Assembly: GCA_948144175.1 (NCBI GenBank)
Contig: CANXME010001997.1
Location: 1 to 64,000 of the forward strand
Reading direction: 5' to 3'
Length of the DNA stretch: 64,000 bases
From: Closterium sp. NIES-65
Taxonomy: Eukaryota; Streptophyta; Zygnematophyceae; Desmidiales; Closteriaceae
In this document: piece by piece, positions 33,701 to 62,200 of the stretch
How positions within the stretch are numbered: the stretch's first letter is position 1
Layout: each line of letters opens with the position of its first letter
Made by a program: the position numbers and the translations under genes
The notes under the pieces: model-generated
The model's input: the letters and a program-made list of their open reading frames with translations, nothing else
Database searches by the model: none
What the model was told of the DNA's origin: nothing

Positions 33701-34293
33701 CAAAAAGGACATCAGGGTGCGGACAAAACCCTCTGGTTGCATGGAAGGCTGCCTGCCTGCTAGACTGACTTTTGAGGCGACTCAAAAGTCACTTCTGATT
33801 CTCAAAAAGGACATCAGGGTGCAGAAAAAACTCTCTGGTTGCATGGAAGGCTGCCTGCCTGTCAGCCTCATACACACTCACTTCCCTCAATTCAAACCTT
33901 CCCACTTTCACCATCCCGCTGATGCAGTCACTCTGCCCCAAGCCGCTGTGGCGCTCAACCGGTTGTTTGCAGGTGGGCTATTGTTGACACGCGGGGCAAC
34001 AATAGCAGCAAGACATGGCCCCCTATTCACCCCTTCCATTTCCCCCATCCCTCTAATGCAGTCGCTCTACCACAGGACGCAGTGGCGCTCAACTGGGTGT
34101 TTGCGGATGGGCCAGTGGGGAAAGCAGGCGCGTGGGACAACAACAGCCGGCGGGACTTCGCGGGGCGGATTGGCGATGCGGAGCAGATTGAGGCCCTGTT
34201 TGAGGGCATGGCGGCGGAGTGTCTGCAACGACTGGAGAAAGAGAGGGAGGAGCGGGATGCGAAAGAGGCTGAGGAGGTGAGTGGAGAAGGGAC

Positions 34294-34326
<33 letters not shown>

Positions 34327-37300
34327 GGGGCAGAGCGGAGAAAAGTGAGGCTCTGATGGAGAAAAGTGAGGCTCTGATGGAGAAAAGGGGGAAGAGTGTC
34401 ATTATTTGGAGGAAGATTTTGGGACTAGCTCTGATGCGACTGCAGCAGGATTGGGACGCGAGGGAGTCTGATAAAGAAGGGAAGGGTAATTCGTCATGGC
34501 CAGGAGGATGTGTAGATATGGTGGGAGCCAGGCACGCGCGGTGTTCACTGGATCAACACTCTGCCTGCTCCTTCCCGTCCCGTGCCCTCCTCACGTGTCA
34601 CAAACCTCTCTGTCCGCCCATCCACAGCCAGCGCGGCGTGCAGAAGTGAAAGCAGCCATGTAGGCACGCACCAAGGCAGTGTTCCTGCAGTCGCAGGCAC
34701 ACGTGTTCTTCACTGAGCCTGCAATACCAACTCCTTTCTCCCTTCCGTTTCTCCCATCCCATCACTCACAACAGGCAGCGCGGCGTGCGGAAATCAAAGC
34801 AGCCATGAAGGCACGCACCAAAGCAGTGTTCCTGCAGTCCCAGGCACACGTGTTCTTCACTGAGCCTGCAGAACCACGAGCAGGAGAGGCAGTGCGCGTG
34901 TACTACAACCCTAGCGGCACGGCGCTGCAGGGCAGGGAGAAAGTGTGGATGCGCGGGTCGTTCAACCGCTGGACCCACCGCTCGGGGTGCTTCCTTCCCC
35001 TTCAGATGGAGCCCGCTGACAACGGCACTCACCTCGTGGCTGAAGGTGAGGGGGAGGAATCCGCTTTCCAGGCGCGTAAAGAAGATGTGAAAGCAAAATC
35101 AATGAAGTAGTGGAGCCACAGTGCTCTCAGGGTGCTTCGCTTTCAGGGGAAGCGCCCCTCCACATGCTGCCAGCTGTGGAGCATTGCCTGCAGGTTGACG
35201 TAGCGCCCCTCCACATTGCCTGCCAGCTGTGGAGCATTGCCAAGTGCACTCACCTCATGGCTGAAGGTGAGGCGGAGGAGAGGGGAAAGGACGTGATGTG
35301 TTGTTGCATTGCATGCAGGTTGACGTAGCGCCCATGTGTTGTGGCGCCCATGTGTTGTGGCGCCCATGTGTTGTGGCGCCCATGTGTTGTGGGGCCCAGG
35401 TGTTGTGGGGCCCAGGTGTTGTGGGGACCGGGCGTTGTGGGGCCCAGGTGTTGTGGGGCCCAGGTGTTGTGGGGACCGGGCGTTGTGGCGCCCAGGTGTT
35501 GTGGGGCCCAGGCGTCCCTAATCCGCCCTGGGCCATGTGGCACGTGATGCTTATGGGGAAACCAGCGACCACCCCCCTTGCTCTCTGTGTGCAGGCGCAC
35601 GGGGCGCACTTGGTGCACCATGGTGCATGATGGTGCCTCGTGAGCCTCGTGAGCCCTGGGCGCACATGGTGCACAGAGGGCTCACGAGGCTGACACGGCT
35701 GACAGGGCTGACAGGGCTGACAGGGCTGACTCGGATCACTGACGAGCCGTCTTCACTTTTTGATTGCCTGCGTGTATTCACATCCAATCACCCAGAGCAC
35801 GAAGACATAATGGGCATAATGGACATGATAGATGGGTGGTGGTGGGGAAGCAGCAACGCCTCTTGCTGTCACCCACTCCCCCTGCTTGCGCTGTGCTCTG
35901 TGCCTGTGCCCTGTGCTGCCGACTGCCTGTGTCCATTCATTTCAACCGCCAGTCCTCGTGCCTCACGACGTGTACAGCATGGACCTTGTTTTCATGAGCA
36001 GCAAAGCGACCCCACTGACCTCTCACTATCCTCCCTGCTCTGACTGATGTGCCCATTCCCCCTACCCAGTCCCCGTGCCCCACGACGCCTCCATAATGGA
36101 CCTTGTGTTCATGGACAGCAGCGACTCCTCTTACCTCTCACTATCAGCCATTCGTCATGCGTATTGTGTCCTGTGCCCCCTCTTCCCCTCCCCAGTCCCC
36201 GTGCCTCACGACGCCTACATCATGGACCTGGTCTTCATGGACAGCAGCGATCCCACCACGGCCACGCACCTGTGTGTCTGTTGATTCACTGTGTCCTACT
36301 GTGTGCCTGTTTCTATCCATCTCCCAGTCCCCGTGCCTCACGACGCGTACATAATGGACCTTGTCTTCATGGACAGCAGCGACCCCACCACGGCAACGTA
36401 TGACAACCGGGGAGGCCTGGACTACCACGTGCCCGTGGCGGGCAGCACTGCCAGGGAGCCGCCTCTCTACATCGTGCATGTTGCTCTCGAGATGGCACCT
36501 GTTGCCAAGGTGAGGGAGAAGAGGGGTGGGGCTGGGTGGAGGGAGAGGGGACTGGACTACCACGTGCCTGTGGCTGGCAGCACTGCCAGAGAGCCGCCTC
36601 TCTACATTGTCCACGTGGCTCTGGAAATGGCACCTGTTGCCAAGGTGAGGAGGAGAGGGTTGGAGGGGGGCGGAGGGGGGTGGAGAGGGGTGGAGGGGTG
36701 GCTGGGGGGGTGGGGTGGAAGAAGAAGCGGGGGTGTGGGGGGGGGATTACTACCACATGGACAGCAGCGATCCATCTACAGCAATGTATGACAACCGGGA
36801 GGGCTGGACTACCACGTGCCCGTGGCGGGCAGCACCGCCAGGGAGCCGCCTCTCTACATCGTGCATGTGGCTCTTAAGATGGCACCCTTTGCCAAGGTGA
36901 GGAGGAGGGGGAGAGGAAGTAGACCTTGGTAGGGACAGATGGGTGAGGGAGCTTTTGAGGAGGTGTTGTGAAAATGGTTAGGAGCGCATGGTCAGGCACC
37001 CATATGCCCTCATGCCCCCATGCCATTGCTTCTCCATGCCATCCCTCCGTGTCACCAGGTGGGGGGTCTGGGCGAAGTGGTGACATCACTGTCGCGAGCC
37101 ACAAGGCACTTTTAATTTCACTGACACGCAAATTAATAAAAAACTGTCACTTGTGTGTTGACTGGCACTTTTTTGTTGTCTCTGTCTGTCCTCCATGCCA
37201 TCCCTCCGTGTCACCAGGTGGGGGGTCTGGGCGACGTGGTGAAGTCGCTGTCGCGAGCCACAAGGCACTTTTAAGTTGACTGACACACTAACCAATCTAC

Positions 37301-40300
37301 CCCTCTGTCTGTCCTCCGTGCCATCCCCTCTTTCTGTACCAGGTGGGGGGTCTGGGTGATGTAGTGACGTCACTGTCGCGAGCCACAATTGAGCTGGGCC
37401 ACAGAGTGGAAGTGGTGCTGCCGAAATACGACTGCCTCAAGTATGACCAGGTGCGTTGACGGTCTGGGATGCTGGGGCTCGTGAGCTTGAACTACAAGTA
37501 TGCTTCGAGGTGCATGATTGAGTGACCTCTGAGGGAGCTGGGCCACAGAGTAGAAGTGGTGCTGCCCAAATACGACTGCCTTAAGTACGACCAGGTGCGT
37601 TGAGGATCTGGGGAGTTGGTGCATGCAGGGGCTTGGTGAGATTGAATACGGTACAATTAGGGTTTGATTTGATGTGCTGGGCCGGGTGTGGTCTGAGGGT
37701 GGAGGTGGTGCTGCGGAAGGAAAAACTTTTGAGTCGACTCAAAAGTCACTGCGGAAGGAAAAACTTTTGAGTCGACTCAAAAGTCACTGCGGAAGGAAAC
37801 CTCTGAGTTCGACTTCCTCAAGTATGTTCATGTGAGTCGGGGGGTCGAGAGCTCTTGGGCTTAGTGAGATGAGATCAATCAATGTATGTTTAGGGATTGA
37901 GAGGTTCTGAGCACCCCAATGTCTCAGGAAGCTGAGGTTGAGTATGAGCTGAGGGAAGTGGGCCATACAAAGGGTAGAGGTCGTGCTGCCCCAATACGAT
38001 TGTCTCTCTCTCTCTCTCAAGTAGGACCTGCGCAAATACAACTGCCTGCCTCAAGTGAAACCCGGTGTGCACGCTGTTACGTTTCAGTCGACCAATAAAG
38101 GCTGCCCCAAATACGACTGCCTTGAGTACCACTGGTCCCAGTACAACTGCCTGACTCAAGTACCACCCGCTGCAAGGGCGCACGCCTGTGACTGTCCATG
38201 CCATATGCCCGCAGGTGCAAGGGCTGCAGACGAGGGGTGCCTAGCAGCGGTCACGTAAAGATGTCTCGGAATCCCGTTCAATTCACACACCCACGCTGTC
38301 CTGTGCTTTGTCGCACCCGCAGGTGCAAGGGCTGGAGGCGAGGGGCGATTTCCTGTGGGGCGGCACGCGGTGGCTGGTGTGGCATGGCCGAGTGGAGGGC
38401 ATCCCCGTGCACTTCCTCGAACCTGAGAGCGGGTGAGTGCGTGTGTAGCTCCCCTTAGTGTGTTTCCGAAGCTTGCTCTGGTCATCTGGGCTGGGACCCG
38501 CGCTCTCTCTCTCTCAGTGGCTTGTGTGGCACGGCCGAGTGGACGGGATTCCCGTGCATTTGTTAGAGCTGGAGAGTGGGTGAGTCAGTCATCCCTTTGA
38601 TATGCTCTGCTCTGCAGTTTGAAAGGAAAGGGGTTGAGCCATTAACTTCACTCGTTGCATCATGGTTTGGTCATACGAGGGATGCACACTTTCTCTCCTT
38701 GTCAGATATCTCGTGCTAAGCTCAATCTCCACTCTTTTTTCCCTTTTTCTTTTGTTTCCTGCGCATCCCTCCCACCCGTTCTTCACGCGTCCCTCCCACC
38801 CAGGTTGTTCTGGGTGGGGTGCATCTACGGCCGCAAGGACGATGCTGCCCGCTTCGGCACCTTCTGCCACGCGGCCCTTGAGTTCCTGCTGCAGACAGGC
38901 CGCTCCCCGGTACGCCACACATTTCATTGCATGGCACACAGGCCGCTCCCCGGTATGCCACACATTTCATTGCATGGCACACAGGCCGCTCCCCGGTACG
39001 CCACACATTTCATTGCATGGCACACAGGCCGCTCCCCGGTACGCCACACATTTCATTGCATGGCACACAGGCCGCTCCGCGGTACGCCACACATTTCATT
39101 GCATGGCACACAGGCCGCTCCCCGGTACGCCACACATTTCATTGCATGGCACACAGGCCGCTCCGCGGTACGCCACACATTTCATTGCATGGCACACAGG
39201 CCGCTCCCCGGTACGCCACACATTTCATTGCATGGCACACAGGCCGCTCCCCGGTACGCCACACATTTCATTGCATGGCACACAGGCCGCTCCCCGGGAT
39301 CTGCTGCATTGTCACGAGGTGACTTTTGAGTCGACTCAAAAGTCACTCAAGATTTGACTCAAAAGTCACTCCAGAGTCGACTCAAAAGTCACTCCAGAGT
39401 CGACTCAAAAGTCACTCAAGAGTCGACTCAAAAGTCATCTGCTGCATTGTCACGACTGGATTCAACGAACTGGTCCTCAGCGCCAGTGGCATGGCAGCAG
39501 AGGGAGCAGTACAGCGGGTATGGGGGGAGAGAGAGGAGGGAAGAGAGAAACGCAGCCCAGCGTCATGCGTTGAGACGTCAAAGCTCCCTCTGTCTCTTCC
39601 CCCCTCCCCCTCCTCCTCCTCATCTCCCCCCTTTCCCCCCTCTTCTAGGATCTGCTGCATTGCCACGACTGGTCGTCAGCGCCAGGGGCATGGCTACAAC
39701 ACGAGCAGTACAGCGGGTACGGAGGGGAGCAGGGGGTGCATGAACCTCAGAGTTCTCTCACCCTCTCTCCCTGCCCCTCTCCATCTCCCCCCTCTTCCCT
39801 CCCCCCCACTCAGGACCTCCTGCATTGCCACGACTGGTCGTCAGCGCCAGTGGCGTGGCTGCAGAGGGAGCAGTACAGCGGGTACGGAGGGGGCAACGCA
39901 CGCACAGTGTTCACCATCCACAACCTCGAGTTCGGGCAGGACATGATTGGCCGCGCCATGGCAGCCTGCGACATGGCCACCACTGTGAGTGCTCACTACT
40001 ATGTGTGTGTGTGTGGACCGCTGGGCGGGCATGTAAGGAATGTGACTGCATTGAGTGGGCCAACGCGCGCACGGTGTTCACCATCCACAACCTCGAGTTC
40101 GGGCAGGACATGATTGGCCGTGCCATGGCTGCCTGCGACATGGCCACCACCGTGAGTGCTGTGTGGCTGTGCTGTGTGTGTGTGTGGCGCAGGAGGGAAT
40201 GTAACTCTAGAGATGAGCGATGCAGGAGACAGGAGTGCTATGGCACGATTGGCATAGTGCTCGGGGGCAGGGCATGATTGGCCGGGCCATGGCTGCAGCC

Positions 40301-43300
40301 ATGGCTGCATGCGATTGGTCACCCACATGTGCAGGAGAGTTCAGTGGACATCCAGCAGCGCAGCGCACACGGCAAAGCATCTTCTCATTTACATCAACCC
40401 CTCTCTTCATCAGTTCCCCAGGCACCCCTCCCTCTGCCTCAGGTGTCCCCCACATACGCGGCGGAGGTCAGTGGGCATGCAGCAGTGGCGGCACACAGGG
40501 CCAAGTTCCACGGCATTCTCAATGGCATCGACCCCGACCTCTGGGACCCCATGGGGGACCCTTTCCTTCCGGTGAGTGCTGCTGCTGTGCCAGTTAATGC
40601 GATGTCACCTGGTGATGGTGTTTACGTCATGCCGCTTGCATACTCTTTTTTAGAATTCTCAGAAATAGCTTTATCCTTTCCCCTCGGTGAGTGCTGCTGC
40701 CGTTTCCACAATAGCGAATAAACCATGCCGTTCACTTCATTCATGCTGATAATGCTTTTTCTCGTGCCACCATTGACGATGTTTCGTTTCTTTCACCTCC
40801 CTGTCCCCATCCCCTCCCCATGCTCTACCCATCTCCAGATGAAATATTCAGCTGCAGAGGTCGTGGAGGGGAAGCAGACAGCCAAGGCAGAACTGCGTGC
40901 CTGCCTCAACCTGCGCTCCATCCCCCCCTCCGAGAATCGGCCCCTGGTGGGAATAGTCTTATGGTTGACTGCACAGAAGGGCATCGCACTCATCAAGCAT
41001 GGGCTGTGTCTCTTCCCACCCTGTCCCCGTCCCTCCTGCTCCTTGTTTCCTGCCTTTCCTCTCTTCACCCCATCCTCAGATAAAATACTCAGCTGCAGAG
41101 GTCGTGGAGGGCAAGCAGGCAGCCAAGGCAGAGCTGCGCGCGCGCCTCAACCTGCGCTCCTTCCCCCCCTCGGAAGACCGGCCCCTGGTGGGCATAGTCA
41201 CGCGCCTCACAGCACAGAAGGGCATCGCGCTCATCAAGCACGCGCCCTTTCCCTTCCCCAACCCCTCCCTCCTGCTCCTTGTTTCCCGTCGTTCCCTTCC
41301 CCACCCCCTCCTCGTGTTCACCCCATCCCCAGATGAAATACTCCTCTGCCGAAGTCGTGGAGGGGAAGCAGGCAGCCAAGGCAGAGCTGCGCGCGCGCCT
41401 CAACCTCCGCTCCTTCACCCCTTCAGAAGACCGTCCCTTAGTGGGCATAGTCACGCGCCTGACAGCACAGAAGGGCATAGCGCTGATCAAGCACGCGCTG
41501 TGGCGCACGCTGGACAGAGGGGGACAGGTGGTGCTGCTGGGGTCGGCCCCTGATGGGCGCGTGCAGGGCGAGTTTGAGGCGCTGGCGAGGGACCTAGGGC
41601 GCTCGCATGGAGACATGGCCCGGCTCTGGCTGACCTACGATGAGCCCTTGTCGCACCTGGTGAGTGTACTTGTTTTGTGTGCGTGGGTTGTGAGGCTGTG
41701 CGTACACTCATCAAGCATGCCTGTGGTGCACTATGTTGGAGAGAGGGGCAGGCAGGTGGTGCTGCTGCTGGGGCCCGCCCCTGAGGAGCTGCGCTGGCAC
41801 AGAACTTCGGGCGTTCGCATGGAGACATGGCCCGCCTGTGGCTCACCTACGATGAGCCGCTCTCGCACCTGGTGAGTGCATGGGTTGAGTGCATGGGTTG
41901 AGTGCATGGTGTGTGATTCTGGTGAGTGCAGTGCTCTGTACGTACCTGCCTCTGGTGGTTCTGCTGGGGTCGGCCCCGATGGGCGCGTGCAGGGCGAATC
42001 TGAAGCTCTTGCGAGGGACCTGGGGCGGTCACATGGAGACATGGCACGGCTCTGGCTGTCTTATGATGGTCCCATGTCGCACTTGGTTAGTGGATGTGGT
42101 GAGTGCGTGTGGTGAGTGCGCGTGGTGAGTGCGTGTGGTGAGTGCGTGTGGTTTCTGGCTGTGTATGTGACCATGCCGACACTGTGTCCACCCTCCATCT
42201 CCCCTTCCCCACTCCCTAACCTTCGCTTCCGCCACTTCCCTTCCGCTCTCTCCCTTGCCCCACAGATCTATACAGAAAGTGACATGATTTCCTTCCCCAT
42301 CCCTTGACATGATTTCCTTCCCCATCCATTGACATGATTTCCTTCCCCATCCCTGTTCCGTCCCCCCCTCCGAGTTGCAAGGTGTTTTTGAGACTTCTCA
42401 AAAGCACCCCCTTCCTTCACCCCCCTTCTCTCCCTTCCCCCACAGATCTACGCTGCGAGTGACATGATTCTCCTCCCCTCCATCTATCACCTGACTTTTG
42501 AGGCGCCTCTAAAGCCCAAACTTCGCTTCCCCTCCTCCTTCCCCCTCTCCCTCTCCACCTCTTGCCCTTCCTCCACAGATCTATGCAGCCAGTGAGGATC
42601 TTGATGAAGCTTAAAGAGTCTTCTGCTCCTTCTCCCCCTTCACTGCCTATCCCTTTCCCCACAGATCTACGCAGCCAGTGACATGATTCTCGTCCCCTCC
42701 ATATTTGAGCCGTGCGGGCTCACCCAGCTGGTTGCGATGCGGTACGGAGCGGTGCCAGTGGTGCGCAAGACAGGCGGGCTGAGGGACACAGTGATGGACG
42801 TGGACAGTGAGGAGGACAGGCAGAGAGCGGCAGAGAGAGGCATGGAGGCCAACGGATTCTCCTTTGAAGGGGCCGATGCTGCTGGCGTTGACTATGCCCT
42901 CAACAGGTGGGCTGCTAGTGGGTGGGAGTCTTGTGTTTGTGTTCTGGTGGGTGTGATTCTTGTGACTGTGGGTTCAGTGGGTGTACGTCCAGTGGGTATG
43001 CTTCTCAACAGGTGTCTATGATGCTAGTGGGCGAAACTATAGTGTGTGTGATGCTAGTGGGCGAGACTCTAGTGTGTGTGATGCTAGTGGGCGGGACTTT
43101 AGTGTGTGTGATGCTAGTGGGCGGGACTCTAGTGTGTGTGATGCTAGTGGGCGGGACTCTAGTGTGTGTGATGCGAGTGGGCGGGACTCTAGTGTCTGTG
43201 ATGCTAGTGGGCCGGACTCTAGTGTCTGTGATGCTAGTGGACCGGACTCTAGTGTGTGAGATGCTAGTGGGCGGGACCTCTAGTGTGTGTGATGCTAGTG

Positions 43301-43963
43301 GGCGCGACTCTAGTGTGTGTGATATTTCTACGAGGAGCTCCAGTGGGCTGTGAAGTTACTGGGTATGATTCTTTTGGGCATGCTTTTAGCGGTTGTGGTT
43401 CCAGTGGCGTTATGCTTCCAGTGGCGTTATGCTTCCAGTGGCGTTATGCTTCCAGTGGCGTTATGCTTCCAGTGGCGTTATGCTTCCAGTGGCGTTATGC
43501 TTCCAGTGGACTCTGGGCATTCCATTGCATGCCTTTCCATTGTCTGAAGTGGTGCCTTATTGTATCTACGTGCATTGCAAGTACTCACCTTGTTCCCCCC
43601 TGTTTTTACTCCAGGCTCAGCAGGGCAATCTCTGAGTGGTAGGGCCTGGCATGAGGGGTGATGAAGCAGGACTGGACTGCCAATCTGATAAAGCGTGTGA
43701 TCTCTGACTGGACTTCCCTCCACGGTCCACCCAATGTGCCTCATCGCACCTCATTGGCGATTTTCACACCGCCTTCACCCCATCCCCTCCTCCCCTCTCC
43801 CCCCTCCTCTCTCCCTTTCTCCATGCCCATCAGGGCGATCTCGGGGTGGTACGATGGGAGGGAGTGGTGGCAGGGCCTGGCTAGGCGAGTCATGGAGCAG
43901 GACTGGACGTGGAACCGCCCCGCTCTTGACTACCTTGAGCTCTACTATGGCGCTCGGAAATAG
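30734..43963 (+). CDS. SS3: Starch synthase III, plastidial (about 1635 aa, 12 exons)
   Basis: Transfers glucose from ADP-glucose to starch chains in the plastid. Exons by hand: 30734-33650, 34062-34276, 34775-35045, 36328-36509, 37343-37450, 38323-38432, 38804-38909, 39814-39984, 40443-40571, 41333-41659, 42665-42906, 43834-43963; all GT/AG and in phase. ATG 30734 ([14 protein letters not shown]) opens a Ser/Arg-rich transit peptide. An acidic region (about 140-330), Ser/Tyr/Asp repeats and an Ala/Glu coiled coil (about 530-715) follow. Three CBM53 starch-binding modules follow: about 716-817 ([19 protein letters not shown]), about 919 into exon 2, and exon 3 ([15 protein letters not shown]). 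The GT5 domain has [10 protein letters not shown] split over exons 4/5, [36 protein letters not shown] and RKTGGL. The end [13 protein letters not shown] is typical of SS3. Confidence 0.93.
33651..34061 (+). repeat. SS3 intron 1: 65-bp duplication around a palindrome, and a 45-nt exon copy
   Basis: A segment at 33699-33763 is repeated at 33800-33865 with the palindrome at 33766-33791 between them. Further on, 33928-33972 is a copy of the first 45 nt of exon 2, with an acceptor before it and GTGGGC after it. Its length and phase would add 15 codons without a stop, so it could act as a cassette exon. Confidence 0.75.
34277..34774 (+). repeat. SS3 intron 2: G-run and a decayed copy of exon 3's start
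   Basis: A G run of about 28 follows the donor. An acceptor-side copy of exon 3 lies at about 34629-34725, with the same intron tail; in exon 3's frame it has a TAG (ATG TAG) where the real exon has AAG, so it is a dead copy. Confidence 0.8.
35046..36327 (+). repeat. SS3 intron 3: 16-bp minisatellite and three copies of exon 4's start
   Basis: 35328-35513 holds about 11.6 copies of a 16-bp unit (GCGCCCATGTGTTGTG and GGGCCCAGGTGTTGTG variants). At 35690-35735 there is a short CTGACAGGG array. Acceptor-side copies of exon 4 (CCCGTGCCTCACGACG pattern, [17 protein letters not shown]) lie at about 35950-36010, 36069-36130 and 36196-36270. The fourth, at 36328, is the one in phase with a donor. 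Confidence 0.82.
36510..37342 (+). repeat. SS3 intron 4: donor-side copies of exon 4, acceptor-side copies of exon 5
   Basis: Exon 4's 3' part with its donor recurs at about 36550-36650 and 36763-36905. Exon 5's first part with its acceptor recurs at 37059-37100 and 37219-37270, each ending in AAGGCACTTTTAA where the real exon at 37343 continues into coding sequence. Confidence 0.85.
37451..38322 (+). repeat. SS3 intron 5: donor-side copies of exon 5 and two palindromes
   Basis: Exon 5's 3' part and donor recur at about 37526-37600 and, more decayed, at about 37690-37835, 37945-38030 and 38100. The third-last copy is broken by two palindromes (37724-37746, 37762-37785), each flanked by the short duplicate CTGCGGAAGGAAA. 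An acceptor-side copy of exon 6 is at about 38216-38255. Confidence 0.8.
38433..38803 (+). repeat. SS3 intron 6: donor-side copy of exon 6
   Basis: The exon 6 end (TGGCACGGCCGAGTGGA... to GGGTGAGT) recurs at about 38518-38586 with about 80 percent identity by eye. The rest is pyrimidine-rich intron. Confidence 0.75.
38910..39296 (+). repeat. Nine perfect-length 43-bp repeats, each carrying the exon 7 splice donor
   Basis: Units start at 38910, 38953, 38996, 39039, 39082, 39125, 39168, 39211 and 39254. Each contains the intron start GTACGCCACACATTTCATTG and the exon end ACAGGCCGCTCCCCG, so every unit recreates the exon 7/intron 7 donor. Units are nearly identical. Short Met/His-rich frames here are by-products. 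Confidence 0.92.
39297..39813 (+). repeat. SS3 intron 7 remainder: palindrome cluster and copies of exon 8's start
   Basis: The direct repeat ATCTGCTGCATTGTCACGA (39299-39317 and 39437-39455) flanks a cluster of palindromic units (39320-39436), about five of 23-26 bp with TTTTGAGTCGACTCAAAA cores. Acceptor-side copies of exon 8 (CTGCATTGCCACGACTGG) are at about 39298, 39437 and 39655. Confidence 0.8.
39985..40442 (+). repeat. SS3 intron 8: donor-side copies of exon 8, acceptor-side copy of exon 9
   Basis: The exon 8 3' part with donor recurs at about 40058-40152 (nearly identical) and a shorter one at about 40270-40316. A diverged exon 9 start with its AG is at about 40334-40376. Confidence 0.8.
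40572..41332 (+). repeat. SS3 intron 9: two copies of exon 10's start and a donor copy of exon 9
   Basis: The exon 9 donor context recurs at about 40676-40705. Exon 10's first 160 bp with acceptor recurs at 40840-41000 and 41082-41241; the third copy, at 41333, is the one continuing into the rest of the GT5 domain. Confidence 0.85.
41660..42664 (+). repeat. SS3 intron 10: donor-side copies of exon 10, acceptor-side copies of exon 11
   Basis: Exon 10's 3' part with donor recurs at about 41750-41880 and 41955-42100, followed by GTGGTGAGTGC repeats. Exon 11's start (CACAGATCTAYGCAG...) recurs at about 42263, 42443 and 42576 before the real one at 42665. Palindromes at 42384-42405 and 42492-42514 lie between these copies. 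Confidence 0.82.
42907..43833 (+). repeat. SS3 intron 11: 30-bp and 17-bp arrays and a copy of exon 12's start
   Basis: The donor context (CTCAACAG then GTG) recurs near 43005. From about 43020 to 43323 there are about ten 30-bp units built on GATGCTAGTGGGCGGGACTC, apparently grown from the intron's first bases. From 43401 to 43510 there are six and a half 17-bp units CCAGTGGCGTTATGCTT. A decayed exon 12 start lies at about 43618-43690. Confidence 0.82.
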
Positions 43964-44139
43964 GCAGTGTCAAGGCGGGGAGACATGCCCCAGTTCTGCT
44001 CGAATTGCACCAGGCGGGGCGAGACGAAGCTGGAGGTGGATCCGCCCCGCTCTTAACTACCTCCAGCTTTACTATGGCTCGGAAATAGGCAGTGTCAAGT
44101 GGTTACTTTTGAGTCGACTCAAAAGCAGACTCGGAAATA

Positions 44140-44364
44140 GGCAGTGTCAAGTGGTTATCAATCACAATTCGAGGCAGTGTCAAGTGGTTATCAATCACAA
44201 TTCGAGGCAGTGTCAAGTGGTTATCAATCACAATTCGAGGCAGTGTCAAGTGGTTATCAATCACAATTCGAGGCAGTGTCAAGTGGTTATCAATCACAAT
44301 TCGAGGCAGTGTCAAGTGGTTATCAATCACAATTCGAGGCAGTGTCAAGTGGTTATCAATCACA
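44140..44364 (+). repeat. 33-bp array (six full copies plus a partial) grown from the SS3 stop-codon region
   Basis: Units start every 33 bp at 44140, 44173, 44206, 44239, 44272, 44305 and 44338 (partial). The unit start GGCAGTGTCAAG equals the bases right after the SS3 stop codon at 43963. Confidence 0.9.
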
Positions 44365-44392
44365 AAAGCATGCCTCTGCCTCGAATTGTGCC

Positions 44393-45209
44393 GAGAGAAT
44401 TTCTCCAGACCCGGAAACGGTGATTTGCCGTTGCACACGTAGCCTTGAATCGCTACCGTGGTCGGACAATTCGATGATAATTGCTCGAGTGGTCTTGCCA
44501 GAGGTTTCCTCTGGCATTTTTTTTTATCCGGCACATTACCCAAAACCGGTCTTTAGCCCTGAAATTCTTATGTCGAACTTGTCTCTTCCCGCGAAAGTGT
44601 GACGCACCCGGAAAGGCGTGCACGAGGGCGGCGCCGTCACTGTTCGGATACGCGACAAAATCGGCACGGTAATCTAGGCAAACAGTTGCGCTCAATTTCG
44701 GTCCATATCGTAACCAATCCGCGCATAGTTATATGATTCCCCGATCATATACTCAGTTGCACAGATGTCAGTACGCGCGACCAATTACAGAGTGCACTTG
44801 ATTGGTCGACTTTATGCGTGGGGCCTTTTCTGACCTTGCGCGTCCAATCAGACGCGGTCATGTAAAATTGTGCTCATATAAAATCGCATATTTACCTATA
44901 TGAGCGCGCATATGTGATGCTCGAATGTGTGTGTGATCTGATTTTTGTCGCGTATCCGAATAGTGACGTTGTCGCCCTCGTGCACGTCTTTCCGGGTACG
45001 CCACACTTTCGTGGGAAGAGACACGTTCGAAGTAAGAATTTCAGGGCTAAAAACCGGCTTTGGGTAATGTGCCGGATTAAAAAAATGCCAGAGGAAACCT
45101 CTAGCAAGACCACTCGAGCAATTATCATCGAATTGTCCGACCACGGTAGCAATTCGAGGCCACGTGTGCAACGTTAAATCACCGTTTCGGGGTCTGGAGA
45201 AATTCTCTC
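44393..45209. mobile_element. Mutator-like foldback element (817 bp, 9-bp target duplication)
   Basis: Inverted repeats of about 275-290 bp (44393-44668 and about 44935-45209) surround a 265-bp AT-richer core. The ends read GAGAGAATTTCTCCAGACC on both strands. The flanking AATTGTGCC is duplicated at 44384-44392 and 45210-45218. Long terminal repeats plus a 9-bp duplication are the hallmarks of Mutator-like elements. No transposase is encoded, so it is non-autonomous. It sits within the tract of SS3 exon 12 copies. Confidence 0.85.
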
Positions 45210-45306
45210 AATTGTGCCGGTGAGGCAAGTGATGGAGCAGGACTGGACTGGACGTGGAACCGCCCTGCTCTCGACTACCTTGAGCTTCACAATGGTGCTC
45301 GGAAAT

Positions 45307-49691: not shown

Positions 49692-52600
49692 TCATATCTC
49701 ATCCTCCATGCGAAGATATTCACCTGCAACAGATGGTGGGTATGGGGGAGAGGGGGGGGGGTGGAAGGGAACGGAAAGCATGCGGGAGCGCAAGGTGAGG
49801 CAAGGGGGGGTGGGCAAGGTAGGGAGGGGGGGGCAGAGTTCGCAGGGCTGCAGGATGCCATAGGCATGCAGCGACAGGATTGATGTGTTCCGCACAGCAG
49901 CGCAGCAGTGTGGTGCGGTGCGGTGTGGTATGGTGCGGTGCGGGGACTTCTCCCTTTTGCATCAACAAACACCTCAATGTGGTGCACTTGTGCAATCCCG
50001 ATGAGCCCCATCTGCACCTGCCGGACCTCCACCAGGTGAACCTCCACCAGGTGAACCTCCACCAGGGGGACCTGTGTCGGCCTGGTGGAAGACAATGATA
50101 GTGTTGGGGCCCAGTCGCCAGCACTCCTTTGTGGACTTGGCTGCATTGTGGTTCAGTGCGGTGTGGTGCGGTGTGGTGAGGTGTGTCACGTGTGTCGGCC
50201 CCACCTGTGTCGGCCTGGTGGAACACAACAATGGCGTTAGGGTCGAGTTTCCGGCACTCCTGTGTCGACTTGGCCGCCACTCCAAAGCCCAGAGGCACAT
50301 CTGACATTGACAGCACCACCACTCCCTGCCATGTGGTGTAAGGGAGGGGAGGGGATAAAAGAGGGGGAAGACGGAGAGGGATGAGAGGGAAAGGGGCCGG
50401 CGGTAGGAAGGAGAGGGGCAGTGGGTGGGATCAGGTCGCTGGCGGCGGCACTCCTGTATCGACTTGGCTGCCACGCAAAAGCCCAGAGCCACGTCTGACA
50501 TCGACAGCACCACCATTCCCTGCCGTGCATGGGAGGGGAGGGGGGTGGGGGCAGGGCGAGAGAGGGGGAAGATGTGGGATGGCAGTTGGGGTTTGAGACG
50601 CTGCAGCACTTGGCTGCCACGTTAAAGCCCAGCGGCACATCTGACATCGACAGAACCACCACTCCCTGCCGTGTGGTGTGGGGGAGGGGAGGGGAAGGGG
50701 GAGGGCAGATGTAGGTTGAGGCGCTGCAGCATTGGGCTGCCACGCCAAAGCCCAGCGGCACATCTGACATCGACAGAACCACCACTCCCTGCCATGCGGG
50801 AATGGGAAGTGGTTGGTGGGAGGGAATGGGGCGATTTGGGAAGGAGGGGTGGGTGGGAGGCCTGGAAGAAGGAGCGGGCAGCGGGGCCCTGTTCAAGACA
50901 CAACAAGACCCGTTCCCATCCCACACCCTACTCATGAGCCTCACTCTACCGCACTCCAGCCCTCCCACCTGGTTCTGCTGCGGGTCTCTATTATCCCCCA
51001 GCTTCCATTTCCCATCCTCAGCCTACTATGTTGGTTGGTGTTACTTTTGGGAATTATTTTGGGGATTCTCAAAAGTTAACACCAGCATGGCTCCCATCTC
51101 CCAGGCCCATCCTACCCCAGCTCCCAGCCCCGCCCTCTCCAATCTCCCAGACCTGCCCTACCCCACCCCATCTCCCAACCCCACTCTGCGCCATCTCAGC
51201 CAGCCCACCTGGTTCTGCTGCGTGGCCTCGGTGATTAGCCCCAGCCCGCTCTTATATACCCGCCTCAAGACACACCAGGTCACGTCCCCACACCGAAGTA
51301 CTGAACCAAAAGCCCATCCTATCCCGGCCCTATGGAAATCACTTTTGAGAATTCTCACAATCACTATTGAGAATTCTCAAAAGTGATTTCCATATAGCCT
51401 CAAGACACACCAGGTCACGTCCCCACACCCAAGTACTGAACCAAAAGCCCATCCTATCCCGGCCGTACCGCACTCCATCCCAGCCCACCCACCTGGTTCT
51501 GCTGCGTGCTCTCGGTGATTCGCCCCAGCCCGCTCTTGAGCACGTGGTTGCCGTACAGGAATGACATCTCTGCTGCTGGCTTCACCCACACCTGGCAAGG
51601 AGGCGAGAAGGGAGAAGAGAAATCGCAGGGAGGGAAAGAGGGACAAATGGTGCTTGGTGATTGCCGTACAGGACAGGAATGACATCTCTGCTGCTGGCTT
51701 CACCCACACCTAGCAAGGGGAAGGAGGGGGGAGAAGAAGGTGTGGGGGGGGGGGGTGGTGGTGAGGGGTGGTTGACTGTAGGAAAGGGAGTGGCTTGGTG
51801 GTTGCCGTACAGAAATTACATTTCCGCTGCAGGCTTCACCTACACCTGCAGAAAGGGACGGGGTGGAGGAGAGGCAAAGATTGAAGGTACCAACCGACCC
51901 ACACCTGCCGGGTGGAAAAGAGGCAAAGGGGCAAGGCCAAAGACGGACCTTGCACTTGGCGTAAGCTGCGAGCAGGTTGCGAGCAGAAACGGTGATATGG
52001 AGCGTGCCATACTTGGTGAAAGAAGCCACGCCACGCCAGGCCAGGCCAAGCCACGCCAGAACAACAGCCCACACGCGCACCTTGCACTTGGCGTAAGCTG
52101 TGAGCAGGTCGAGCGCAACCTTCACACACCAGGTCAAGCCATGCCAAGCCAGGCAAGACACAAACATTGCACTTGACGCACCTTGCACTTGGCGTAAGCT
52201 GCAAGCAGGTCGAGCGCAGTGACTGTGAGACGGAAGCTGCCCGACTTGGTGAACTTGCCAATGCACGTGCCCAGTGACGCTAGGTGGTCCCGGGACACAC
52301 TTGTTGCTCTCCGCATGATGGCCTGATGAGGGGGGGGGGGGGGGGGGGGGGGTGTGACAGGTCGGGGCAGGGATGAGTGTGCTGCGAGCAAGGGTGGTGC
52401 TGCTGGTGAACTTGCCAATGCACGTGCCCAGTTATGCTGGATGGCCGCGCGATACACTCGTGGATCGCCGCATGATGGCCTAATGCGGACCCCGTGGGCA
52501 AAGATGTGCGGGGCAGATGAGATTTAGTGGGGAGATATTGTGACAGGGGGTCACGTGAAAGGTGACAAAGGATAGAGGCGCGAGGGGACACGCGAGCAAT

Positions 52601-53026: not shown

Positions 53027-54689
53027 CGTCGCTCGTTACTGTAGCGAACGCCGCCTGTGTGACTGTAGCGGGTGTGCGCTTCTGTCTGGTCGTGGTTGAC
53101 TGATTTGCGTCGCGGTACGCGTTATTTTGTGCGTGAGTAAGTAGCGAAGAATGCTGTCGAAACTAGCTGCGGGGCAACGGAATGGCGTAAAGCAACAAAA
53201 GAAAAGAGAGAGTTTTTGCTTTCACAAGAATGCCGCTAGGCAAACTCTGTCCTGAGACGTTTCGTTCTGTACAAGCATCGAAGGCCAGTTACTAGTGGGT
53301 TCCAGCAGACGTGGCTATGGGGCCGATGAAATCCGCTGAGGAACATGCCTTCTCTAAAAAGGTTCTGGAGAGAGTTGGAGCTACGGGAGGGTGTGATGGT
53401 GTGGTGGGGTGCTCCTGCAATTGTCTCCAATTGCGCATGAAATGATAAAGATTACCACGTGTATTTGTTTGAGTGAGGCTCAGAACAATTCTCGTAGCGA
53501 CTCAACTGCAAACGCGTTACGATTCTTGCGGGGATGATGAATTTGACAAGAATTGGGTGGAATGAGATCGACGGCTGTAAAAGATGTAGGTAGGGCTTAG
53601 CCCAAGAATCGACGCTCCATCCCAATCCACCTCCGCCACGAAGTCTGGCGGTGGGAGGTGGTCTGGTCAGACGGCTGTGGCTGTGGGCGGTTGAACGGAA
53701 CAACCGCTGAGGTTGACGTTCCGCCAAGGTTGATGGCACCCTGGTGGGGTTGACGTCCACCCAACGTTGCCACAATTTCTCCGGGCAGCTTGAAATATAA
53801 GAGCATGCTGCGCAGATCCACCAACAACAGCACATAATTTCACTGTACACCTCCACATCGTGTATGATATGCGCACGTGAAATTCACGCGAATCTGAGTG
53901 CTTCGTGCCCCTTGAGGAAAGAAAATGTCGGCGAGGAGGAAGCACGTCAAAGCAAGCCCAAGGTTGCTTTGCATGGGCCATTCCCTCTTTCACGTCACTT
54001 CTGCGTAGAATCTCCACCGAGCACAACGTCTGGGCTCCCTCCTGTGTTCGGCAGCGGAAGCAGCACAGCACACCAAACCAGTCTACGTCGCTGCGCGCCC
54101 CCTGAGTGCCTGCTACGCCACCCCTCCGCTCCTCCCCGCGCATCCCCCATCCCCCCCTTTCAGCCAGTGCCAGCGGGATTGGGTGATGGCGGAACTGCTT
54201 GCTGACCCAGCCAAGCAGTCACCTAGGTTTTCTCCCCCCTACGTTCTGTCAGTCACCTCGATTCCTGTTCCTTGTTGGTGGCACACCGTGCCGTGAACCA
54301 TGGCTCTTGCTGGCGGCAGTTGTAGAAAAGGATCGTCGGACGAAAATTGTGTTGTCAGCCTAGTCTTCCGTGGATCTACCATCAACCGCCTTCTTTTGTT
54401 TTGCCTCTGGAAGCCTTGCGGTACAGCTGGCTCCTTGCAGATTATTGACTAGCACAGCTGGAGTTTCAATTATTCAACTATTTTCCTAGCACGATTCGGT
54501 TTAGCTTCTTGTGTCCAAGTGTTACATTCAATTCACGGTGCCTAAGATGAGTACCTCTAGTTACCGTCGTCGTCGTTTCCGATTAAGGCAATCGGTCAAG
54601 CCCTTTCAAGATTGATGCGACTTGCCACACACGGTCTTTAAGGTTATAGCCTAACTGCCTAAATACAACTTTTAGAGCGCTGACTACTG
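53027..54689. other. Intergenic region between divergent NIP7 and the PDZ-like gene
   Basis: The two genes start away from this 1.66-kb region, so it holds both promoters. Only a 22-codon frame at 54547-54615 (MSTSSYRRRRFRLRQ...) stands out, a possible upstream frame 74 bp before the next gene's ATG. Confidence 0.45.
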
Positions 54690-57600: not shown

Positions 57601-57931
57601 TACCCTGGTGCTGGCTTCCGGCGGGGTAAATAACGCAGCGTGCCCTCCCGACTGGGGGTTACTTCTGGAACAAACCCCCGAGGGAGTGGTGCACGTGGTG
57701 GGGGTGAGGGGGGGGAGTCCGGCGGAGAAAGGAGGAGTAGCCATGCTGCTGAGGATGGCACGGGCGAAGAAACGGCTGCTGCTGCTGTCGAGGCTGCAGG
57801 GGCAGGTGCTGCTGCCGTCGGTGATAGCCAATGGGCAGATAGACTGTGCTGACGTGGAGGCTCTGCAGGAGCAGCTGGTGCTGCAGGCACATCTGCCGTC
57901 CATCCCGCTGCGCCTCACGTTTGCCCTGTGA
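54690..57931 (+). CDS. Unrecognised protein with PDZ-like segments (about 861 aa, 3 exons)
   Basis: Exons by hand: 54690-54952, 55365-57123, 57368-57931, in phase, ending TGA. Residues 1-87 contain HALLPGDIILRVGD, the pattern of a PDZ peptide-binding loop. Exon 2 encodes an Ala-rich start, a region with FDGSYDDTTASFGAASYR, charged low-complexity stretches, a GDAGDAGAAG run and a GMQAA/GMPAV pentapeptide repeat (56699-56810). Exon 3 encodes a globular C-terminus with GVVHVVGVRGGSPAEKGGV, again PDZ-like, ending LPSIPLRLTFAL. No protease catalytic residues are recognised. It may be a scaffold; I cannot name the family. Upstream coding exons cannot be excluded. Confidence 0.65.
56699..56810 (+). 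repeat. 15-bp coding repeat (GMQAA/GMPAV pentapeptides)
   Basis: Seven in-frame units based on GGCATGCAAGCAGCA alternate Gln/Pro and Ala/Val variants in the PDZ-like gene. Confidence 0.85.
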
Positions 57932-59130
57932 GAGGGGCTATTGGCCCGATGGTGAACATGACATGCTTCGAGTTGATTCGTGGGAAACTTCTGCTGCGTG
58001 CAACTGAAGACTGGCTTCTTTTTCAGAAGCTGTGGCGGTGGCAGCTTCTGCCTCTTTTGGGGGGGAGGAGGGGGAAGGGTTAGAGGAGGAAATTCACACC
58101 TATGATACAAGCATTTCTGATCAACATCTAGGGGCATTCACGCCTCTGGACTGGATTCCCTCGAAACCCTCCCGCGCTCCCCCATGCACACTCACACACT
58201 CCCTCGTTTATTTTCCTCGCCTTTACTCTTCTTCACTCTCTTTCTTTCTCCCTCCTCTCACCTCACCAGGTCGTCTCACCCCTCCACCACTCTCTACTCT
58301 TTTTTCTTTCTGCTTAGCCTGGTCCCCAAAACGGGCAGCCTAATCTTTTCATCACCTCCTGCTTTTGCTTTCATAAGTGGCTCCTATGCCCATCCCACAT
58401 GGATGCCCCTCTGGTGCTCCAATACAGCAAGTGTTCGAGCACTTATGAATGTAAAAGTATGAGACTGTGAAGACAAACGCTTTATTGCGCCATCCTTTCT
58501 AGCAATTTTTGTGAGTGGCTTTAGAATGCCGTTGCTTGCTCTTCAGCTAGCATATTGTTTTTATTTATCTGGGAACACAACACACTATTATGAGTACACG
58601 TTCAAAATACCAACCTACAGAACACGCGATCCTGACGGCCCAAGCAATCCAGCAAATGTATCAGTTGCTGGTTCGAGGGGTCGTATATATAATAGGGTCG
58701 GACACGGCTGTATGGGTTCTGGTCTGGTATAGCATGGATGCAGTACGGTTACGAGTTCACATCCGGTAAATCCTTGCCACCGTTCTCCGCTCTACCATAA
58801 CTACTGCCTAACTGTGGTACAGCTAAAACCCTGAAATTGCCGCCAACTGTGAATTGTGTCGCTTGACGATGCGCTGAGACACTATGCCTGAAAGCAAGAA
58901 GCAGCCAAGACGAGAAGCCGAGACCAGTCACCACAGACCAGCTCACATGCGAAGGATCTCCGAGCTGCCGTCGGCCCATGCGAAGAATTGCGACGAATGG
59001 AGTGGCGGTGAATGGAAGGCGATGAAAAGAATGGCGATGAATGGAGTGGCGACGAATGAAGCAAGGCCTAGCCTATGCCAGGCCCTTCTGGCAGTGGCCG
59101 CTACTACTCGTGAAATACACAGCATTTAAG
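57932..59130. other. Intergenic sequence after the PDZ-like gene
   Basis: No gene is recognised. GCGAYGAATGGAGTGGCG-like imperfect repeats are present at about 58985-59062. Confidence 0.45.
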
Positions 59131-59199
59131 CACGTCAGCTCACGTCACGTCTTGCCACGTGACGTCAGGCAGTGGGTCGTGCGAGCAGATACGCCACGT
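59131..59199 (+). promoter_or_regulatory. Cluster of six ACGT-core motifs before the pyrophosphatase-like gene
   Basis: ACGT occurs at 59132, 59142, 59147, 59157, 59162 and 59196. It includes a palindromic G-box CACGTG (59156-59161) that abuts a GACGTCA CRE/C-box. These are bZIP/bHLH binding cores in plants. The cluster ends about 47 bp before the proposed ATG, so it could be proximal promoter or 5' UTR. Confidence 0.45.
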
Positions 59200-59245
59200 C
59201 AGTCTGTCAGTAACCGGCCAGCGTCAGCTCGACCGCGACCGTCAA

Positions 59246-62200
59246 ATGGACGGCAGTGACGACGGCGACCGTCAAATGGACGGCAACGACGGCGGCGACG
59301 GTGACTGGAATGACGACCCGGCGCCATCAATCTCCACCACAGGTCCTCCTATCCCCGCATCGCTGCCGTCCGTTTCCATGATACCGGTGCTTTTTCAAGG
59401 AGTGAGAGTGTCGCCATGGCACGACGTTCCCCTCTATCCAGCCGACGACGAGGAATTAGGGTTGGACCCTTCGTTGGATTCGCACTCTGATTCGCACGCG
59501 CTCTCTGACTCGCCGGGTCCAGCTTCAGACCTGGTCGCGGAGTCGCTGGAATCGAGCTCGCAGCTGTCGCACGTTTCTGCGACGTCTGCGACGTCGTTTC
59601 GAATGATCTGCACGAACCCGGCAGGCAGGCGTCGCGTGCACGTGATCTCGCCAACGGACGGTCAGATCGTCGCCAGCTGCTGCGGCAATACCGAGGGATC
59701 TGCCACTGCTGCTGATTCTGCCACTGACTCTGCTGCTGCTGGGTGCAATGATGACGCGAAAGGCTTCTCTGCTACGGTGGTGGATTTCCCCTGGAACTGC
59801 GGAGTGCTGCCGCAGACCGCCACTGCCTCGTCAGCGGCGTCGCTGTCAGATGCTGACGTGTTGCTTCCTGTGGAAGCTGTGGACATTGCGCCGTCCCGGC
59901 ACTCGGCTGGAGATATTTATGAGGTGCGAGCGTGGCTGCTGCTCTTTACCAGGCTACTTGTCCTGCTCTGAACGACTTGTGTACTTTTGAGTCGACTCAA
60001 ACGCAGTCTCTCTGCACTCGAACGAGCGAGGCTGCTGCTCTTTACTTACCAGGTTACTTGTCCTCTCTGAACGATTTCTGTTCTGTCGCTTTTTTTTTCC
60101 TTGAAAATCCACTCTGTTGGCTATGATCAGATGCCGCGACAAATGCTCTCAAGTCGTCAATCCCTTGAACGCAACGCAACTGCCATCCTTGCTTTTGACT
60201 GCTTCTCTCCTCACTGCCACTCTTTAGGTTCTGAGCCCTCCTCCTCTCTTTCCATCCCGCATTGTCACCCCATCCTCCCTTTTCCCCTGCTGCCCTCCCC
60301 CACCGCCTCCCCCTGCCTCCTCCCTGCCTTCCCCCCCACCTGGTTCTTTCCCCCCCTCGCCCCACCAGGTGCACGCACATGCAGTCATCGCTATACCCAA
60401 TCCCCTCACACTATCCGTGGCATACCGCCTGGTCGTGTCTGACGTCAGCGCTGAGTCAGCACCGTATGACCTGGACGGTAATGCGCTCATGGCTGTGCTT
60501 CAGCGCGTCTGCGCTTGGCTGGAGTCAACTGACACGTGGCTGCTCTCCGGCCATGCTGACGTGGCAATGCAGGCCACTGTGGACCCTGACGAGGTGGCAA
60601 AGGTTCTGGATGAGACCCACGTGGCATGGGCTGAGCTGTACGTGCTATCTCAGCCGTTCTTGCCCGCTGCCCTCCTGCTATCACCCATACCCGAATACCC
60701 AGCACACACAGAACCCGTTCCAGCAGCAGCACCAGCAGCAGCAACACTTAACCCCACACTCACTCTTGATTCCGCGCCCTCACCCGCTCCCAGCTCCTCT
60801 CTGCCTGATACCGCCACACTCCCACACACGCTTCCACTCCCACACACGGCCCCTGCTTCTAGGCCTGGCTCTGCACCGTCCCGCACTTGTGCTGCTGCAG
60901 ACAAACCAGCATCAACACATGCGGCAGCAGCAGCAGCAACAGGAGCAGAAGCAGCAGCAGCAGGGGCAGCAGGGGCAGCAGAGGCAGCAGGGGCAGGAGG
61001 GGCAGCAGGGGCGGCAGCAGGCAGGCCAGGTGACGCCAGTTCATCGGGGAACCCTCCAGCCCTCACAAGGCGCAGCTCCACAGGAGGCCGCTCTGCCTCC
61101 AGGGCCGCTCTGCCTACAGGGGCAGCAGGGGCAGCAGCAGGGGCAGCAGCAGGGGCAGCAGCAGGGGCATCAGGGGCAGCAGCAGGGGCAGCAGTAGAGA
61201 CGCCAGGCGATGACACAAGCTCATCAGAAGCCCCTCCAGCCCTCACAAGGCGCAGCTCCACAGGCGGCCGCTCTGCCTCCAGAGTCGGCCACTCTGCTCC
61301 TCCTCACCCGTCCGCCTCTTTCCCTTCCGCGTCTCTCGCTTCCGCCCCCCACCCTTCTACCGGGTCATATATCAGTGTGCCACACAGCGGGGACGCACAC
61401 AGCAGTGGCGCATACAATGAGGGCGCACAACAGGGGGGCGCGCAGGTGGGGGGCGCGCAGGGCAGGGGCGTACACAGCGGAGGCGTACACAGCGGAGGCG
61501 TACACAGCAGGAGCGGACACAGCGGGGGTGGACAGGGGGGGGGAGGACCGAGGGGAGCCGCATCCAATGGGGGCGCACAGGTAGGCGAGAGGTGGCGAAG
61601 GGCAGCAGCAGGGGCACGATCCATGGCTGTTGGGGCGCAATCCGTGGCTGCTGCTGGTGGGGGAAGAGGAGGGGGCAGAGGGGGAATGGGGAGCGGAATG
61701 GCTGCTGGAGGGGGAGGAGGAAGGAGGGGAGAGGTTGCTGTAGGGAAAGGAGGGAGAGGAGGGAGAGGAGAGGGCGCGTTTGTGCTGAAGGGAAACATTT
61801 TGCCACAGCATGCAGCCAGCGTCACTCCTTCTGCTGCTGCTGCTGCTGCTGCTTCTGCAAGCTTTGAGCATGCAGCTGGTGCCAGCCCGGACAGTGTTAC
61901 CAGTGGTGCTGCTAGTGCTGCCAGTGATGCTGTCAGTGGTGTTGGTCTTAGACCTAGTGCTGCTACATCTTCTGCTGCATCGTCTGCTGCCACTGTCACT
62001 GCTGCCTCTGCACCATTCCCAGGGCCATACCATAGGCGGGCAGAATCGCACGGCGCCATACCGTTACAAAGCCACCGGTTACCAGCAGCAGCTAGGTCAC
62101 AGGGAGCTATTCCCTTACACCCCCCCCAGTCACCAACAGCTAGGTCACAGGGAGCAATGCCGCTACAGAACCACCGGCTACCAGCAGCAGCTAGGTCCCA

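Follow-up and report, generated by a model that had tools for sequence, protein, structure and literature searches.

Several described processes leave short duplicated segments or short repeated inserts in genomes, and they form the background for a family of tiny palindromes that we report here from Closterium, a single-celled alga and close relative of land plants. The family occurs in a 64,000-nucleotide stretch of Closterium sp. NIES-65 (contig CANXME010001997.1, positions 1 to 64,000; hereafter the window), where several copies lie in introns of the gene SS3, and in the assembly at large. The literature considered consists of open-licence papers, and our statements about each cited paper apply to the excerpts consulted.

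Fill-in of staggered breaks with 3' overhangs by CST/Pol-alpha leads to small tandem duplications in mouse and human cells (PMC8355091), which resemble the Closterium joins in having short duplicated segments on both sides. The mammalian duplications, however, are exact adjacent copies for which those excerpts describe no constant junction palindrome, whereas the Closterium joins carry a recurrent one. The GC42 clusters of yeast mitochondria are mobile 42-nt palindromes with an AG dinucleotide target, for which the authors suspected reverse transcription (PMC4478555). They share with the Closterium family the character of an ultra-short, multiplying palindrome, but the Closterium copies are nuclear (SS3 introns, with repeats of 13-64 bp), are accompanied by long duplications and have ragged outer ends. 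Introners, too, are short repeated inserts within genes, and some of them have terminal inverted repeats; they carry or recruit splice sites and show repeats of 3-9 bp (PMC9860276), whereas the six SS3 palindromes lie inside larger introns. New introns in Daphnia are also inserts flanked by direct repeats, which are attributed to staggered breaks, measure 4-12 bp and are shared with the neighbouring exon (PMC4202315). Closterium repeats mostly span 16-73 bp and surround a shared insert, and the Daphnia excerpts mention no common insert. As far as these excerpts go, a constant palindromic junction together with duplications tens of bases long is seen in none of GC clusters, Daphnia introns and introners. 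The Closterium genome-size paper gives a repeat content of 47-64% (PMC10407611); the string 'palindrom' occurs 0 times in the consulted portion, and our search of the literature found no description of such a palindrome family.

The palindrome core is ACTTTTGAG-NNNN-CTCAAAAGT. With up to 3 mismatches allowed it has 14 matches in the window, where dinucleotide shuffles lead one to expect 0.01. The original prediction, made from the window alone, had placed palindromes with TTTTGAG/CTCAAAA arms at a series of positions, and this four-N pattern recovers them there. The six-base centre it gave them was a misreading of the spacing: the true centre is 4 nt, and the single window match of a six-N pattern, at 58588 and with 2 mismatches, is unrelated. 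Across the Closterium sp. NIES-65 assembly (874,075,685 bases, 2,400 contigs), TTTTGAG-N4-CTCAAAA has 30,327 exact matches, as against 4 for a reversed-pattern control, and the 22-base core at up to 3 mismatches has 27,530, as against 0; both totals include tandem arrays and therefore correspond to fewer independent events. The first of these figures is what aligns the family with mobile mitochondrial GC clusters as an ultra-short palindrome in many copies. The nuclear genome thus holds some 30,000 tiny palindromes, most of the sampled ones situated between copies of one short host segment.

Few centres recur. Among 50 listed places (contigs C6, C9 and C10) the centre was TCGA in 22, ACGT in 12, GCGC in 10, AATT in 2 and another sequence in 4, so that 46 of the 50 have one of four self-complementary centres. 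The 255,120 bases read contain 86 TCGA, 9 GCGC, 7 AATT, 5 ACGT and 12 other centres, counts biased towards TCGA because most of this DNA was retrieved by TCGA patterns. An exact 20-mer had 0 matches in viral contigs and 0 in prokaryote genome contigs. A leucine-rich-repeat (LRR) reading frame from the window has its best protein matches in Closterium; a plasmid collection searched with it gave no match, a protein search with the translated array at 39.3 kb gave no candidate, and ten matches to palindrome peptides among 120 proteins from the LRR search look like ordinary LRR sequence.

Flanking repeats were found at 100 of 117 distinct sampled places, as compared with 2 of 587 pairs of swapped flanks. 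These places were picked by palindrome pattern, from the first places in contig order and not at random; they were de-duplicated by 58-bp context, places lying 120 bp or less from the end of a fragment were dropped, palindromes less than 120 bp apart were taken as one place scored on its first unit, and a gap of up to 45 bp between palindrome and repeat was allowed. The association holds for single copies (80/93) and arrays (20/24), for each main centre (TCGA 75/85, GCGC 7/8, ACGT 6/7, AATT 6/7) and for each sampling class (core listing 44/50, full-length listing 29/34, long-arm 11/12, general listing 16/21). At single copies the median repeat length is 36 bp (5-95% range 16-73, n=80). The first 35 loci include 31 single exact-core copies, of which 29 had a flanking repeat. 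A stricter ungapped test (offset of at most 30 bp, window included) left 45 places with a repeat, 15 without and 9 arrays. One locus, with an ungapped repeat of 130 bp (L055), is array-like, since that repeat contains another palindrome.

Two further nulls bear on chance. For the listing by the general form of the palindrome, 20 fragments take in all those of the 50 listed places that the DNA read earlier did not contain, apart from one array of four on contig C10; in them 18 of 23 palindromes or arrays passed, compared with 4 of 298 positions drawn at random from those fragments and 1 of 380 pairs of swapped flanks. An earlier random-point null of 20.8% of 269 was inflated by long arrays near some loci and is superseded by these later ones. 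The association that the original prediction proposed to seek genome-wide is borne out in the places read: these copies mostly have flanking repeats, and such repeats are far from equally common at random positions. The same few palindromes recur at these joins; the places were chosen by their palindromes, however, and so are uninformative about other joins.

Within the window, repeats were sought by local alignment over 150 bases on each side of every palindrome. They flank the copies at 33764, 37724, 37762, the 39.3-kb cluster, 44104, 51331 and 59982, and neither local alignment nor an ungapped abutting test found one at 42381, 42494 or 51046. The assertion that duplicated copies flank every palindrome was therefore too strong. 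Tandem repeats are plentiful in the window (138 rows in a tandem-repeat scan), so that chance repeats need weighing: 6 of 10 window palindromes pass the ungapped abutting test, whereas with 700 random positions from each background the passes number 41 for SS3, 29 for the region and 12 for the window. SS3 exons were mapped with SS3 proteins from Closterium strains Naga37s-1 and NIES-64, which the gene start in the window matches at 92-100% over 25-35% of the query. All the palindromes except that at 44105 had been called intronic; this stands for the copies at 33.76, 37.72, 37.76, 39.3, 42.38 and 42.49 kb, which SS3 introns contain, and the 44.1-kb copy lies just 3' of the SS3 stop.

Paralogous copies, which are not alleles, suggest what the target may have looked like before insertion. 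A decayed SS3 exon copy holds the 39.3-kb insertion. Its sister at 39648-39672 carries the 19-base target once and aligns across it and both junctions (24/25 identical, 0 gaps), and the functional exon copy at 39813-39837 is 22/25 identical to the site, also with 0 gaps. At 44.1 kb, 44 of 50 columns match the functional last exon in an alignment that ends inside the target, and at 37.7 kb the paralogous copy covers the target in part only. There is good support for insertion with duplication of a short host segment: 100 of the 117 places have repeats, and in one window paralogue the whole target occurs a single time. Coordinates of the window features are collected in the table.

Palindromic inserts, their flanking repeats and paralogous target sites in the window.
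Feature	Position	Strand	Basis or remark
64-bp direct repeat, left copy, SS3 intron	33696..33759	+	60/64 identical to 33798-33861
38-bp insert, palindrome core ACTTTTGAGGCGACTCAAAAGT	33760..33797	.	pattern match
64-bp direct repeat, right copy	33798..33861	+	alignment to left copy
13-bp direct repeat CTGCGGAAGGAAA, copy 1, SS3 intron (decayed exon copy)	37711..37723	+	
Palindromic 25-bp insert, TCGA centre	37724..37748	.	
13-bp direct repeat, copy 2	37749..37761	+	
Second 25-bp insert, identical to first	37762..37786	.	with repeat, a 38-bp tandem unit, 2.3 copies, 100%
13-bp direct repeat, copy 3	37787..37799	+	
Exact 19-bp direct repeat, left copy, SS3 intron	39299..39317	+	
119-bp insert: one full palindrome GTGACTTTTGAGTCGACTCAAAAGTCAC, then 23-bp tandem variants	39318..39436	.	
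Exact 19-bp direct repeat, right copy	39437..39455	+	
Paralogous site of the 39.3-kb insertion: target once, no insert	39648..39672	+	24/25 identical, 0 gaps
Decayed palindrome, ACTT centre, flanking repeat not found	42381..42408	.	
Decayed palindrome, GCGC centre, flanking repeat not found	42494..42515	.	
Paralogous site of the 44.1-kb insertion, functional last exon	43925..43974	+	44/50 identical, 2 gaps; alignment ends inside target
Exact 28-bp direct repeat, left copy, in decayed copy of SS3 last exon 3' of the gene	44078..44105	+	
Palindromic 24-bp insert, TCGA centre	44106..44129	.	
Exact 28-bp direct repeat, right copy	44130..44157	+	
Decayed palindrome, AATT-like, flanking repeat not found	51043..51076	.	
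68-bp direct repeat, left copy	51262..51329	+	67/68 identical
67-bp insert: perfect 27-bp arms, 10-nt middle (AATT type)	51330..51396	.	
68-bp direct repeat, right copy	51397..51464	+	
Diverged ~55-58-bp direct repeat, left copy	59927..59981	+	gapped alignment with indels, score 72
41-bp insert, TCGA-centre palindrome, one arm mutated	59982..60022	.	
~55-58-bp direct repeat, right copy	60023..60080	+	gapped alignment

The centre of the insert recurs, whereas its outer ends stop at different points from locus to locus, on the left and on the right alike. Past the 22-bp core the arms run into (T)AACGAGGTG: the left arm continues for 0-9 nt and the right for 0-8 nt, and the two lengths are hardly correlated (r = 0.19, n = 28). 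Reading outward from GAGGTGACTTTTGAG revealed a longer source for the tail, and the 28-mer GTGCCATGGTAACGAGGTGACTTTTGAG has 158 + 154 genome matches at up to 2 mismatches, the control having 0. Twenty places were retrieved with this 28-mer, of which 16 differ in context, although L111 and L119 are near-identical and L106 and L115 look like paralogues. All 16 have a TCGA centre, with a selected arm of 29-36 nt and an opposite arm of 5-16 nt, and 14 have a flanking repeat.

A transposon keeps its ends against the host constant, and its inside may vary. MITEs (miniature inverted-repeat transposable elements) in particular have fixed termini beside a target duplication of near-fixed length. The Closterium palindromes resemble MITEs in their inverted-repeat structure, high copy number and occurrence near genes, but their constant part is the centre: no fixed terminal sequence is seen, the outer ends vary by locus, and the duplications are too spread in length (the range given above for single copies) to be called near-fixed. 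Variable-length target duplications are shared with retroposons of the long and short interspersed element (LINE and SINE) classes, which differ in having a constant 3' end and variable 5' truncation, whereas the constant point here is internal. In LINE-1 twin priming, two cDNAs primed from both sides of the target give inverted long cDNA segments; the Closterium tails would instead be short, stop at a single end of the template and be joined head to head. MITEs, LINE and SINE retroposons, mobile GC clusters and plain staggered-break tandem duplications each have a defining feature that these insertions lack.

We tentatively read the palindromes, at less than even confidence, as recurrent insertion scars, formed by template-copied tailing of both 3' ends at a staggered break, head-to-head joining and fill-in. 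Nicks in opposite strands some 13-90 bp apart would produce the staggered break, and the same short template would be copied onto both 3' ends. Copying would start at varying points and stop at the same template end, giving tails of ...GAGGTGACTTTTGAG followed by TC, or of ...TTTTGAG followed by GC, AC or AA. The two tails would then join head to head into a palindrome that is perfect, its centre fixed and its outer ends ragged; joining identical tails that end at the same base would yield a perfect palindrome, including an even, self-complementary centre, whatever the tail sequence. Finally, on the analogy of known fill-in repair, synthesis across the overhangs would duplicate the host segment on both sides, which would account for the flanking repeats. 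We favour tailing and joining because what stays constant lies inside the insert, while the ends that face the host are ragged, unlike those of a transposon.

In the version of this tailing mechanism that we prefer, a reverse transcriptase would run to the 5' end of a short RNA. Were the template RNA, its 5' end would be the tail complement 5'-GACTCAAAAGTCACCTCGTTACCATGGCACACGACACA; the small RNA would start near GACUCAAAAGUCACC / GACUCAAAAGUC and measure about 40 nt, and a non-palindromic genomic source of the template would carry TGTGTCGTGTGCCATGGTAACGAGGTGACTTTTGAGTC. The tail complement GACTCAAAAGTCACCTCGTTACCATGGCACACGACACA (L106-L125) contains ACCATGGC, which we take to resemble a plant start-codon context, and is possibly the 5' end of an mRNA. 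The fullest form of the proposal is more doubtful: that a Closterium machinery tails both 3' ends with copies of one of a few short templates (for the TCGA type at least 36 nt plus two further nt, probably RNA, 5'-GACUCAAAAGUCACCUCGUUACCAUGGCACACGACACA) and joins the tails head to head, in a telomerase- or retron-like repair that would have produced tens of thousands of copies, many with filled-in duplications, and seeded tandem arrays.

Several observations weigh against tailing and joining. Firstly, 17 of the 117 places have no flanking repeat at the threshold used, and extra bases that the scheme does not explain occur at 20 of 56 junctions (left 9/28, right 11/28). Microhomology of at least 2 nt is present at 11 of 36 clean outer junctions, against some 16% expected by our reasoned estimate, which is a weak, suggestive sign. 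Secondly, the asymmetry of the long-arm loci is expected anyway, since they were picked by one long arm, and so lends mild support. The arm measure ends at 36 nt and six loci reach that length, most of them by eye with AAA just upstream and otherwise with no consensus seen, so that the template may exceed 36 nt. Thirdly, some loci have symmetric arms of their own: ACGTGAAAGAAGGAGTG on both sides in L144, AAAAGTTGGG in L139 and GTAGATAGGTT in L135, all unlike the common TCGA arm beyond TTTTGAG and with ACGT centres (ACAT in the case of L139), as well as CATGC/GCATG in L006 and GTTGAC/GTCAAC in L087; L062 and the window insert at 51330-51396 are further examples, and both arms of L015 are 19 nt. 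One palindromic or hairpin donor fits such loci better than two independent tails. That the asymmetry is due in part to selection and that a third of junctions bear unexplained bases count against tailing and joining, its fullest form included, and somewhat favour the two rivals taken up next.

The better of these is a foldback mini-element, which we regard as possible, if somewhat doubtful. A short hairpin or double-stranded palindrome derived from existing copies would be captured at staggered breaks, its ends nibbled before ligation; it would thus be a mobile DNA unit, and the long duplications would come from the break and not from a transposase. Nibbling would give a constant centre with ragged ends, the inner TTTTGAG/CTCAAAA is common to several subfamilies, and the symmetric, locus-specific arms (51330-51396, L144, L139, L135, L006, L062 and L087) are what such a donor would leave. 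Left and right arm lengths that are nearly uncorrelated argue otherwise, as does L009, in which the 17-mer GAGGTGACTTTTGAGTC stands twice in tandem on one side only; the short opposite arm of the 16 long-arm loci points the same way, weakly, given their selection by one arm.

Passive filler, in which staggered breaks are mended by ordinary error-prone repair (polymerase-theta-like template switching) that takes short stretches from abundant sequences and has no dedicated machinery, seems to us unlikely. The palindromes would have won out as self-complementary and already common. Staggered breaks are reported to yield small tandem duplications with fill-in (PMC8355091) and to underlie repeats in Daphnia introns (PMC4202315), and the ragged outer ends and unexplained junction bases suit such repair. 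Many spaced direct repeats in the window have a spacer without a palindrome of this kind, but all nine whose spacer holds a perfect palindrome (arms of at least 8) belong to the TTTTGAG/CTCAAAA family, and the tail ends at the same point in most listed places (46/50, four centres), neither of which passive copying leads one to expect. The original prediction had offered both a mini-element with unusually long target duplications and hairpin filler in staggered-break repair. From the former the duplication of a host segment survives, whereas defined ends do not, the outer ends differing and the centre being of few types; the latter fits better than a mini-element with defined ends, with the amendment that the filler in the places read consists of a few recurrent sequences in head-to-head pairs.

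Internally deleted or excised transposons with terminal inverted repeats (TIRs), the palindrome being two abutting TIRs, are highly improbable. The inner heptamer CTCAAAA, common to subfamilies, does look like a conserved transposon tip; the tips, however, would face inward, and it would be the truncated inner parts that abutted the host repeats, opposite to what an insertion or a footprint leaves; repeat lengths, moreover, vary widely. No exact ACTTTTGAG or CTCAAAAGT occurs in the window outside the palindromes, the 39.3-kb cluster and the decayed 51.05-kb copy, by which remnants of a long TIR element in the window were ruled out. A sequencing or assembly artefact can practically be dismissed: palindromic cores resemble adaptor or linker dimers as a matter of general knowledge, but the copies differ in centre, arms and mutations, their flanking repeats carry substitutions and indels, and tandem arrays with decayed units exist.

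Arrays in which repeat and palindrome together form the unit have spacings of 45, 64 and 79 in some loci and of 51, 59 and 67 in others. Regular palindrome arrays lie at C842:4292309-4294328 (51 bp), C21:1653906-1655371 (67), C30:147760-148568 (79), C16:109895-110172 (64) and C6:107990-108155 (37), and suggest that palindrome scars seed satellite DNA. In the window, a 43-bp minisatellite (38891-39297, 9.5 copies) stops one base before the 39.3-kb target repeat and a 33-bp minisatellite (44139-44365, 6.9 copies) overlaps the right copy of the 44.1-kb repeat, so that both inserts stand at array edges. Between 35948 and 44204 the SS3 introns are full of tandem copies, now decayed, that derive from adjoining exon edges (for example 35948/36065/36191/36323, 36410/36545/36797 and 40823/41064/41317), so that the gene seems to duplicate its exon edges often. 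An inverted-repeat element at 44393-45209 has arms of ~268 bp (44393-44660 and 44943-45209) with AATTGTGCCG on both sides, which looks like the 10-bp target duplication of a Mutator-like miniature element. Retrotransposon reading frames lie at 8585-10666 (Copia-type) and 18660-20183 (gypsy-type), and identical hairpins at 15508 and 20722 may mark two long terminal repeats.

The palindromes look like scars of a break-repair or insertion process that matches none of the families considered. Even under the milder rivals they constitute a very abundant repeat family that is absent from the literature searched. If tailing and joining is true, they would represent an insertion class whose recurrent part is a junction and not a pair of ends, with tens of thousands of nuclear copies. 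Eukaryotic break repair would then be able to tail both ends from a fixed template, and the process would generate local tandem duplications, lengthen introns and give rise to satellite arrays.

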